Shown one piece after another: positions 3,073 to 52,456 of a stretch of 64,000 nt of DNA (position 1 is its first letter; each line of letters opens with the position of its first letter). The translations under genes and the position numbers were made by a program. The DNA is from Chitinophaga chungangae (GTDB lineage Bacteria; Bacteroidota; Bacteroidia; Chitinophagales; Chitinophagaceae): assembly GCF_017742215.1 (NCBI RefSeq), contig NZ_JAGHKP010000006.1:1-64000 (forward strand), in the 5' to 3' direction. Under the pieces are notes generated by a model. The model was not told the DNA's origin and ran no database searches. It saw only the letters and a list, made by a program, of their open reading frames with translations.

Positions 3073-4428
3073 ATGTTGTCTGTTAACCCCCTCTGCTCTG
3101 AGGCCCTGCTCCAGTATATCTGGCTGTCCGGGCTTTTCGACCCGTTCAATCTCGCCACCGTTACCGGCGAGCCCGTCGTTATCCTAAGTCCCGGCCAGCT
3201 CAACCGCGACGGCGGCCCCGATTTCACCGCCGCCCGCCTGCGCATCGCCGGTTTGGAATGGGCCGGGAACGTGGAATTGCATTACCGCACGTCCGACTGG
3301 CGCCGCCACGGCCATCAGCACAACCCGAAATATCACAATGTGATCCTCCATGTGGTGTTCGAGCACGACCTCCCCGCGCGGCCCGCACCGGGGAAAGGCC
3401 CGTCCCGCAAAACTTCGCGGCGAACGCCGCCCGAAATGCCCGGCCCGCCGCCGATCCCCGTTCTGGAGCTGCAACACCGCATCCCGAAAATGCTGCTGCG
3501 CCGTTACCATCACCTGATGGAGCAGGCTGCTTTCGTGCCCTGCGCCCCACTGCTGCACCGTGTGCCGGAAGAAATCTGGGAAAGCTGGAAACCCCGGCTG
3601 ATCGAGGAAAGGTTTGCCAGGAAAACGGAGCTTTACCGCAACTGGCTCGAACAAACCCGCTTCAACTGGGAAGAAGTGTGCACCCGCGCCATGGCACAGA
3701 GCTACGGCATGCCGGTGAATACCGCGGCTTTTATGGAACTGGTGCAATCCATTCCCTTTATGCTGCTGGCCCGCACCCGCCTCTACCGACACCGCCTGGA
3801 AGCCCTGCTGTTCGGCCAGGCCGGTATGCTGGAAACCGCTTTTCAGGACGACTACCCCAAAACGCTCCAGACCGAATACCGCTTCCTGCAACATAAATAC
3901 AACCTTCAGCCCATGCCGCCCTATCGCTGGCAATGGCTGCGGATGCGTCCCGCATCGTTCCCCAGCCTGCGTATCGCGCATTTCGCGGCCGTACTGCATG
4001 CCACGCCGCATTTTTTTTCCCGCCTGCTGGATACCGAAAGCCAGCATGCCCTCGAAAAACTTTTACACGCGGAGCCTGATCCGTACTGGCAATTCCATTA
4101 CCGGTTCGACATTCCCTCCGTACGCACCGCCGGCCCCGGCAAACATATCCTGCATCACCTGATGATCAACACCGTAGCCCCGCTGCTCTACCTCTACGGC
4201 AAACACATGCGCCTGCCCGGATACCAGCAACGCGCATCAGACCTGCTGGCAGCCCTTCCCGCGGAAAACAACCACATCATCCGCGGCTGGGCGGATGAAA
4301 AGATACCGGCCAACACCGCAAAAGATTCGCAAAGCCTTTTGCAGCTCAAACAATATTACTGCGACCGGAAAAGATGCCTGGAATGTAAAGTGGGCAGAAA
4401 CCTCCTAAGCGGGGGGGCGGAAGACTGA
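3073..4428 (+). CDS. DUF2851 family protein
   Basis: The 451-residue cytosolic protein matches the DUF2851 family found across Bacteroidota. Recognisable blocks are the N-terminal LLQYIWLSGLFD, the PGQLNRDGGPDF segment, and GNVELHYRTSDWRRHGHQHN followed by NVILHVV. The many conserved His, Asp and Glu residues suggest a metal- or nucleic-acid-related enzyme, but the function is not established. Near the C-terminus are three cysteines (YYCDRKRCLECK) that might bind metal. A Pro/Arg-rich insertion at about residues 100-120 is probably a loop. The stop codon lies inside the left arm of the hairpin cassette at 4419-4512, so the last codons are duplicated in inverted form downstream. Confidence 0.85.
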   Translation: MLSVNPLCSEALLQYIWLSGLFDPFNLATVTGEPVVILSPGQLNRDGGPDFTAARLRIAGLEWAGNVELHYRTSDWRRHGHQHNPKYHNVILHVVFEHDLPARPAPGKGPSRKTSRRTPPEMPGPPPIPVLELQHRIPKMLLRRYHHLMEQAAFVPCAPLLHRVPEEIWESWKPRLIEERFARKTELYRNWLEQTRFNWEEVCTRAMAQSYGMPVNTAAFMELVQSIPFMLLARTRLYRHRLEALLFGQAGMLETAFQDDYPKTLQTEYRFLQHKYNLQPMPPYRWQWLRMRPASFPSLRIAHFAAVLHATPHFFSRLLDTESQHALEKLLHAEPDPYWQFHYRFDIPSVRTAGPGKHILHHLMINTVAPLLYLYGKHMRLPGYQQRASDLLAALPAENNHIIRGWADEKIPANTAKDSQSLLQLKQYYCDRKRCLECKVGRNLLSGGAED

Positions 4429-4512
4429 TCTCAAATTTTCTAAAAAAGAACTGGGCTGTGAGTTTCAGGGCAATGGGCACAGCTTTTTTAGAAAATTTGA
4501 GATCAGTCTTCC
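4419..4512 (+). repeat. Hairpin cassette, copy 1: 29-bp perfect inverted repeat around a 36-nt conserved core
   Basis: Arms 4419-4447 and 4484-4512 are perfect inverse complements over 29 bp; the loop is 4448-4483. The left arm starts within the last codons of the DUF2851 gene and includes its stop. The core reads GAACTGGGC...ATGGGCACAGC and is bounded by A6 and T6. Copy 2 (4648-4744) has a related core but unrelated arms. In both copies the core has the same orientation relative to the gene it follows. As RNA this would be a very strong stem and may act as a terminator, but there is no terminal T-tract after the right arm. Confidence 0.9.
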
Positions 4513-4647
4513 TTTGGTGTAACAAAAAAAAGAACGTTGGCATGTGGCCGGGTTTTTTGGAAAACAAACACCCTTCAAACACAGTGGGGAAACAAAAAGC
4601 GGCAATTATTATTCCTGTGCCTGATCATCCTGGGTTTTTCCCCGGGG

Positions 4648-4744
4648 AAAATCAGCATGTTTTAAATTTAAAAAAAGCTGTGCCCATAGCCACTGCCATC
4701 CACCGCCCAGTTTCTTTTTTTTAAATTTAAAACATGCTGATTTT
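4648..4744 (-). repeat. Hairpin cassette, copy 2: 29-bp perfect inverted repeat around a 39-nt conserved core
   Basis: Arms 4648-4676 and 4716-4744 pair perfectly over 29 bp. The right arm ends 3 bp from the osmC stop codon, so on the minus strand the cassette directly follows osmC. The core on that strand reads GAAACTGGGC...ATGGGCACAGC between A- and T-runs, matching copy 1. The remaining arm sequence (AT-rich, with CAGCATG) is unrelated to copy 1. The 135 bp between the two cassettes shows no coding potential. Confidence 0.9.
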
Positions 4745-4747
4745 TGG

Positions 4748-5155
4748 TTACCAATTGAAGGTGATGTTTTGTTGGATATCGGGATGAATACTTTCCGCTA
4801 CGGGGCAGGTGTATGCCGCGTTTTCCAGGATCTTGCGGTCTTTGTCCTGCAGGCCGTGGCCGGCGGGAAAATCGAAGCGGATATTGATGCCTGTTATACG
4901 GCGGGGTTCGGTGCCCATGATCTTTTCGACGCTTACTTTCGTGTTTTCGATATTCCAGCCTTTGTCGCGGGCTTTGATGCCCATGATGGTGAGCATGCAG
5001 GAGCCGAGGGCGGTTGCCACCAGGTCGCTGGGTGAAAACCGCTCGCCTTTGCCGTTGTTGTCTACCGGTGCGTCCGTATTGATGACCGTCCCTGACCGGA
5101 CGTGCGTGGCCGTTGTTCTGAGCTCGCCGTTATAAATGATCGATGCAGTTTCCAT
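4748..5155 (-). CDS. OsmC family peroxiredoxin-like protein
   Basis: The 135-residue protein has the OsmC/Ohr fold pattern: FSPSDLVATALGSCMLT around Cys53 and NAAYTCPVAESI around Cys117. These two cysteines form the thiol redox pair that reduces organic hydroperoxides in characterised members. The protein is cytosolic and about the usual length. The sequence is closer to the general OsmC/YhfA type than to classical Ohr, so the substrate is uncertain. The gene stands alone and faces the DUF2851 gene, with two hairpin cassettes between them. Confidence 0.85.
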   Translation of the reverse strand: METASIIYNGELRTTATHVRSGTVINTDAPVDNNGKGERFSPSDLVATALGSCMLTIMGIKARDKGWNIENTKVSVEKIMGTEPRRITGINIRFDFPAGHGLQDKDRKILENAAYTCPVAESIHPDIQQNITFNW

Positions 5156-51838: not shown

Positions 51839-51860
51839 ACAGCCGTTTATTATGCTTATA

Positions 51861-51897
51861 AAAAAATTGCCGGTCAACCGACCGGCAATTTTTTTTT
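51861..51897. terminator. Bidirectional terminator between rlpA-like gene and tag
   Basis: A 15-bp perfect stem (51861-51875 with 51880-51894) on a 4-nt loop, with A- and T-runs at the two sides, lies between convergent genes. Confidence 0.92.
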
Positions 51898-52456
51898 ACG
51901 GGTGATATTTCCAGCAGCCCTGCACATGGTCGTTCACCATGCCGGTAGCCTGCATGTAAGCGTAACAGATCGTGGAGCCGACGAATTTAAAGCCTCTTTT
52001 CAGCAGGTCTTTGCTCATGGCGTCGGATATCTCCGTTTTGGCGGGCACCTGCGAAGTGCTTTTAAAACGGTTCAATACGGGTTTGTGATCTACGAAGCCC
52101 CAGATGTACCGGTCGAAGCTCCCGAACTCCTTTTGCACGGCCAGGAAGGATTTGGCATTGGCGATACAGGCCCGCACCTTCAGTTGGTTGCGGATGATGC
52201 CGGGGTCCTGCAATAATTTTTCTACTTTTTTATCGGTGTACTTCACGATCTTTTGCGCGTCCCAGTTGTCGAACGCTTTGCGGTAGTTTTCCCTTTTGAC
52301 GAGCACGGTATACCAGCTGAGGCCGGCCTGCGCGCCTTCCAGGCAAAGCATTTCGAACAATTGTGTATCGTCGTGGCAGGGCGTGCCCCATTCTTTGTCA
52401 TGGTAATCCATGTACAACTGGTCTTTGGTGCTCCAGCCGCATCGTTGTTTTTCCAT
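51896..52456 (-). CDS. tag: DNA-3-methyladenine glycosylase I
   Basis: It removes 3-methyladenine from alkylated DNA, starting base excision repair. The start at ATG 52454-52456 is preferred; it overlaps the stop of the upstream gene as TAATG and gives 186 residues. Tag hallmarks are KQRCGWSTKDQLYMDYHDKE at the N-terminus with a zinc Cys, LEGAQAGLSW with the catalytic-pocket Glu, and the C-terminal GSTICYAYMQATGMVNDH with further zinc ligands. It is the last gene of the glmS-DUF4954-tag unit. Confidence 0.95.
   Translation of the reverse strand: MEKQRCGWSTKDQLYMDYHDKEWGTPCHDDTQLFEMLCLEGAQAGLSWYTVLVKRENYRKAFDNWDAQKIVKYTDKKVEKLLQDPGIIRNQLKVRACIANAKSFLAVQKEFGSFDRYIWGFVDHKPVLNRFKSTSQVPAKTEISDAMSKDLLKRGFKFVGSTICYAYMQATGMVNDHVQGCWKYHP

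Follow-up and report, generated by a model that had tools for sequence, protein, structure and literature searches.

Known hairpin repeats and template switching

The hairpins most similar to those described here are the ones attributed to template switching. In PMC8604942, arm homogenisation and inversion of the spacer (loop) form the signature of this process; PMC8794818 points to compensatory changes and names loop inversion as the strongest possible support for it. The family reported below has counterparts to all of these: arm changes compensated over several bases, homogenised arms and an inverted loop. The cases presented in the two papers have short loops (inverted loops of 2-5 bp in PMC8604942, where shorter spacers are favoured, and mostly of 4 nt in PMC8794818) and lie in rRNA genes and yeast coding genes, whereas the present family is dispersed and bacterial, and its members share a constrained loop of 34-36 nt between arms of 27-33 bp.

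Several families of dispersed repeats also invite comparison. REPINs (PMC3116915) likewise consist of two related inverted units with a variable spacer, mostly outside genes, but their REP ends are conserved and are moved by a RAYT. In the present family, the units are hairpins in their own right, with arms that vary; each of the two genomes has 11 of them, and a search of four genomes for a Y1 transposase found none. ERIC and other stem-loop repeat families (PMC2267715) are also dispersed and often located at gene borders or between genes; the families treated there have members clustered by sequence similarity, whereas good conservation is limited here to the loop and the innermost stem. Intrinsic (Rho-independent) terminators are alike in that they often lie just behind stop codons and in the A-run, short G/C-containing stem and T-run around the loop, but in the present hairpins the T-run adjoins the loop, within the 30-bp stem, instead of following the stem at its base.

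Twin hairpins between DUF2851 and OsmC

The window analysed is a stretch of 64,000 nt from Chitinophaga chungangae (genome G000). As the original prediction had described, two hairpins (1L and 1R, Table 1) lie between its convergent DUF2851 and OsmC genes, with related loops in the same orientation to the gene that each follows. Both loops read AACTGGGC...GGGCACAG on the strand of that gene (the minus strand for 1R), and each is preceded by an A-run and followed by a T-run. The arms are 100% complementary in both hairpins (1L, 4419-4512; 1R, 4648-4744). It had also been noticed that the gene-proximal arm of 1L takes in the end of DUF2851, and the reading frame does end at 4428, within the arm.

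Table 1. Features of the twin-hairpin locus, in positions of the window.
Feature	Position	Strand	Length	Remark
DUF2851 gene, upstream of 1L	3073..4428	+		from the ORF list, Pfam name; 10-nt overlap with 1L
1L gene-proximal arm	4419..4448	+	30 bp	DUF2851 ends within it (last codons and stop, 4426-4428)
1L conserved loop	4449..4482	+	34 nt	reads AACTGGGC...GGGCACAG
1L distal arm	4483..4512	+	30 bp	perfect complement of the 1L proximal arm
Spacer separating 1L and 1R	4513..4647	no strand	135 nt	no alignment to the orthologous spacer of C. barathri YLT18 at the threshold used
1R distal arm	4648..4676	-	29 bp	
1R loop region	4677..4715	-	39 nt	conserved core on the minus strand
1R gene-proximal arm	4716..4744	-	29 bp	OsmC gene ends 3 nt away
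OsmC-like gene, with 1R behind it	4748..5155	-		from the ORF list, Pfam name

These twin hairpins are far above chance. Their inverted-repeat scores are 30 and 29, compared to a best score of 15 in one of ten Markov-simulated 64-kb sequences; the other nine stayed below 14, the floor of the score in these simulations. Folding of the single-stranded DNA gave z-scores of -11.6 for 1L and -9.0 for 1R, with none of 200 shuffles as stable. Hairpins of this type were not flagged by a terminator scan, which permits loops of 3-8 only. An Rfam search of the hairpin region gave 19 matches at E up to 10, mostly to miRNA hairpin models and all below the gathering score, ruling out a known RNA family for that region. 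Elsewhere in the window, an imperfect inverted repeat at 51848-51907 (28-nt arms, 82%, and a 4-nt loop) lies outside the hairpin family.

Family size and distribution

The core recurs beyond this locus, as had been anticipated: G000 and its sister species, C. barathri YLT18 (G003), contain a real family of hairpins with locus-specific, near-perfect arms, so none of the grounds on which the original prediction was to fail applies: the core is not unique, its copies do not have identical arms and its flanks are inverted. The two hosts are related soil bacteria. We know of 11 hairpins in G000 and 11 in G003; of these 22, only 3L of G000 has decayed arms, the other 21 being intact. The original prediction held that the arms are perfect and 29 bp long; they are indeed perfect at this locus, but their length is not fixed, at 30 and 29 bp here and 27-33 bp, with a mean of 30.1, over the 21 intact hairpins.

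A strict sequence pattern matched at 3 places in G000, while looser patterns combined with reading of the flanks gave 6 places in G000 and 5 in G003. We also used a sequence-only core model (R1), built from 11 type 1 cores, on 79 genomes of the genus. It matched 10 times in G000 (E 3.3e-15 to 2.5e-4) and 11 times in G003 (E 6.5e-16 to 0.013). The remaining 77 genomes gave 13 weak matches, spread over 11 of them; the best match (E 0.004) beats the weakest true member in G003 (E 0.013). No hairpin was seen at 12 of these matches, the thirteenth (L101, at a contig end) falling outside this check, and the R1 search revealed no further family member in the 77 genomes.

R1 missed one true member in G000 (C1:747013-747112), which was recovered by a scan for inverted repeats that is blind to the loop. 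The scan covered 464 kb of G000, most of it selected for its matches and the window included, and found 12 inverted repeats, ten of the family and two with short loops; in 280 kb of G003, 11 of 14 belonged to the family. Stretches of G000 not chosen for matches had no inverted repeats in 120 kb, and a further 400 kb had two, neither of the hairpin family. Most of both genomes was searched by R1 alone.

A loose pattern run on 59 relatives matched in 23 genomes. Among 30 loci drawn from these matches, the long hairpins are all in G000 or G003, with none at the rest, and six matches outside these 30 loci are likewise all in these two genomes. A first pattern, expected to miss many true members, had no match in the species collection. 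With a degenerate pattern, the collection (84,980 species, which may omit the window's own genome) yielded 6 stretches, with a hairpin only in C. barathri YLT18 and no such arms at the match in the other five.

At the DUF2851-OsmC site itself, we read the flanks in 30 of 60 genomes, 28 of them outside the G000/G003 clade. The nearest relative among these, G033, has no hairpin, and its stop-to-stop gap is about 72 nt, compared to 319 nt in the window's genome. Four of the 28 sites (in G015, G028, G060 and G070) hold other inverted repeats, with arms of at least 24 bp and unrelated loops. At folA, no hairpin of the family kind was found within 330 nt of flank in 11 relatives.

Other long hairpins came to light in these genomes. 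In another Chitinophaga (G060:C4:1-100000; L147-L151), 18 inverted repeats score at least 17 in 100 kb, with arms of 23-55 bp and loops of 3-55 nt, and many consist of heptad-like units (AAAAAGC, AATTACG, TTTTAGC); this set is much denser than, and different from, the G000/G003 family. Two hairpins in G015 (C59:52026-52116 and 97740-97830; L159, L161) turn the design of the family round: their 26-bp arms (TATATCGATCC...) are similar and their 39-nt loops unrelated. A pair in G028 (C23:666752-666849 and 691799-691914; L155, L156) has arms of 46 and 55 bp and a 6-nt loop and inner arm in common; the second hairpin is located behind DUF2851. Finally, a repeat with GTCATTGCGAGGAGCAGC occurs in G003 as inverted pairs about 100 nt apart (C21:60887-61036 and 76829-76986; L167, L168).

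The original prediction had no name to offer for such an element, and we found no published description of these hairpins in a literature search without most subscription papers. The hairpin family looks new, while template switching as a mutational process is already known.

Shared loci and gene context

Five of the six G000 loci are twins with inward-facing loops, and they occur in convergent, tandem and divergent gene settings alike. Besides DUF2851/OsmC, twins lie between a convergent Gfo/Idh/MocA-type gene and FMN_bind_2 (PaiB-like) gene, between the divergent MatE and DUF3822 genes (where G003 has a single hairpin), and in the tandem intervals from a TPR protein to a sigma factor and from a glgB-like gene to a DUF4382 gene; folA has a single hairpin. 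The names glgB-like, mrp-like and primase-like come from reading the proteins rather than from a database search, and the others are Pfam names. In G003, three loci are inward twins and one is a tandem pair, the latter because one loop is inverted. G003 also has one extra hairpin (no. 8), between mrp-like and PaiB-like genes.

All six G000 loci are occupied in G003 too, which shows that the family is inherited and not freshly inserted. No empty site was found between the two genomes, and present-day movement is unsupported.

Seven of the 11 hairpins in G000 are in sense orientation at a gene end, starting anywhere from 10 nt inside to 22 nt past the stop codon. The remaining four lie ahead of a start codon, 3L by 85 nt, 3R by 44 nt (or 8 nt, should the gene begin at the TTG given in the ORF list), 4L by 33 nt and 5R by 232 nt. 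Placement behind genes, which had been put forward from the first two copies, therefore fails as a general rule, and an element for strong hairpins at 3' ends, as also suggested, is too narrow a description. Nor can the hairpins all be explained as plain terminators of the genes beside them.

Arms include gene-end codons at DUF2851, at folA and, in G003, at PaiB. In the last case (G003:C23:15023-15123; L177), the arm overlaps the end of the PaiB-like gene, the C-terminus differs from that in G000, and the hairpin seems to alter the end of the protein.

Paired drift of the arms

The arms change in concert. Leaving out the decayed 3L of G000, the 21 hairpins contain 635 arm pairs, of which 624 are Watson-Crick, 5 G.T, 3 A.C and 3 other; three of the 11 non-Watson-Crick pairs stem from the arm boundary set at 4L of G000. 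In the alignment of these hairpins, 131 cells are changed on both sides of the pair, compared to 36.6 +/- 4.7 after shuffling and no more than 34 when the partners are slid. G.U accounts for only 5 cells of the arm columns; in MFE folds of five tRNAs, which served as a small control, it accounts for 15 of 119 pairs.

Ten comparisons between the species, including one of 3R of G000 with the single G003 hairpin that is maybe not its strict orthologue, comprise 222 unchanged pairs, 54 double changes from one Watson-Crick pair to another and 10 others (three from an arm boundary and four from the locus 3 comparison). Transversions make up 33 of the 54 compensated double changes. The arm alignments of 1R, 2L, 4R, 5L and 5R also have gaps of 1-4 nt, which must be mirrored in both arms because both of the compared hairpins are paired. 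Each species has its own last codons of folA, and in each the distal arm carries them in inverted form. In G003, hairpins 2R and 8 lie about 0.87 kb apart, with outer flanks that align well and arms that differ and stay paired; from their alignment, they look like a local duplication with concerted arm change beside alignable flanks.

Arm identity between orthologues drops outward, from 0.94 at positions 0-8 to 0.61 (8-18) and 0.49 (18-29). Between loci, the corresponding values are 0.68, 0.45 and 0.26, and twin partners reach 0.33 in the outer arm. The arms had been thought to differ completely between copies; they are locus-specific, but towards the loop they resemble one another across loci, and those of orthologues do so more closely. 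With such low identity in the outer arms, the hairpins have neither the terminal sequence conserved in all copies that marks REPs nor the conserved terminal inverted repeats of MITEs.

Loops and spacers

Orthologous loops have an identity of 0.79 (n=9), those of twin partners 0.76 (n=9) and those of different loci 0.74 (n=101), giving no clear signal of clustering by locus. As much the same loop positions are kept everywhere, the loop is constrained, and something probably reads it. In one of the nine orthologous hairpins (5L), a comparison of the species shows the loop turned round within its flanks: the match is on the minus strand for the flanks and on the plus strand for the core. Locus 3 may hide a second loop inversion, confounded there by the loss or gain of the partner.

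The orthologous spacers align only partly or in short patches. We found no conserved interior of the twins, only short shared patches, for example one of 26 nt. The locus 3 spacer of G000 (C1:1050116-1050278; L146) contains a 26-nt direct repeat (GTCCTGGTACTRCGTTTTTCCTTTTT) with 96% identity.

What keeps the arms matched

On balance, these hairpins probably form an old, vertically inherited and mostly twin family in which replication template switching copies mutations between the arms. Each member of this family, which belongs to a small Chitinophaga clade, is a sequence-constrained loop of about 34 nt on a stem of about 30 bp, and the arm differences between loci would arise by drift and not from separate insertion sites. 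Where a replicating strand folds back or switches template in the inverted repeat, a mutation in one arm would be copied into the other. The same kind of event would sometimes invert the loop, and could carry gene-end codons into the distal arm. Selection on the loop, perhaps also on stem length, would then retain the hairpins.

The lack of a recognisable SbcD hairpin nuclease perhaps helps template switching. SbcCD cuts DNA hairpins. SbcD had no match in G000 and one in G003 at 32.8 bits, below the cut-off of 77.65, and it was above the cut-off in 11 of 36 relatives searched. This link is loose, since many relatives without the family are also without SbcD, whose lack is therefore no peculiarity of the G000/G003 clade. 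Within Chitinophaga, SbcD is patchy, with 7 of 23 searched members above the cut-off (G000 counted among the 23).

How the family originated is a separate question, and here template switching is compatible with an idea that we consider possible, though the less probable one: that the hairpins are the ends, and the spacers the decayed interior, of a twin-ended MITE-like or REPIN-like element whose spread in the common ancestor later came to a halt. Such remnants would fit the dispersal of copies whose inner arms are related, the inward twins at five of six G000 loci whatever the direction of the genes, and the short, hairpin-free DUF2851-OsmC gap of G033. However, no conserved interior was found, the terminal sequences vary between copies, and no empty site was found between the two species. 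No target-site duplication was noticed by eye at loci 1 and 2, where a close empty site is lacking for comparison. A Y1 (RAYT-type) transposase (PF01797) was absent from all four genomes searched (G000, G003, G033 and G060), while 5 of 14 control genomes were positive; its absence rules out membership of the REPINs.

Ordinary selection on RNA would need no copying between arms: a functional transcript stem would have its compensatory mutations fixed singly as pairing is selected. This would explain the strong covariation (the 131 double-changed cells), the constrained loop and the sense orientation of the seven hairpins just behind stop codons, but we regard it as unlikely. G.U pairs are almost absent (5/635), 33 of the 54 double changes are transversions, indels are mirrored, the 5L loop is inverted and some hairpins lie ahead of gene starts. 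So few wobbles and so many transversions, together with the mirrored indels and the loop flip, are hard to reach through single-base RNA compensation and point to template switching, although strong selection on pairing could also remove intermediates.

It is very improbable that, as the original prediction supposed, insertion of a core at a gene end is accompanied by inverted copying of the adjoining 29-30 bp, for although arms differ between loci and hold gene-end codons at DUF2851, folA and PaiB (G003), the six loci are shared with arms that diverged later, and the relatedness of the inner arms across loci suggests that part of the arm is the element's own. Copying of adjacent DNA into the other arm does find support in the inverted codons at folA in both species. 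With shared loci, and arms that diverged after the split while keeping their complementarity, the copying acts on hairpins that already exist.

Template switching thus fits better than either stepwise RNA compensation or insertion with fold-back copying, and the pattern of change suggests that DNA copying itself, beside selection, keeps the arms matched. The main weakness of template switching as the cause we infer is the family's loops of 34-36 nt, which are far longer than those of the cases given in PMC8604942 and PMC8794818. It also counts against it that only two genomes carry the family, so that the direction and number of events cannot be read, and template switching alone leaves the narrow spread of arm lengths (27-33 bp) unexplained.

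Possible function and significance

All six loci have stayed occupied and the loop constrained while the spacers diverged, which argues for a function. Judging from position and sequence, gene-edge punctuation is plausible, in which the loop and T-run would end transcripts at the border or protect them there; a plain terminator does not account for the hairpins ahead of gene starts. A fuller proposal, which we hold to be rather unlikely as a whole, is a new gene-edge element, in which a loop of about 34 nt would be read as RNA or single-stranded DNA by a factor, on a stem of set length and nearly free sequence kept paired by template switching, with inward twins bracketing intergenic regions.

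Hairpins of this kind can change the final codons of the genes next to them. With 22 hairpins in two genomes, the family is also a compact natural system for asking whether a stem is maintained by selection on RNA pairing, base by base, or by copying from arm to arm during replication, and its mirrored transversions, mirrored indels and loop flip make this question directly testable. Strong base-pair covariation is commonly read as proof of a functional RNA, yet it may arise at the level of DNA.
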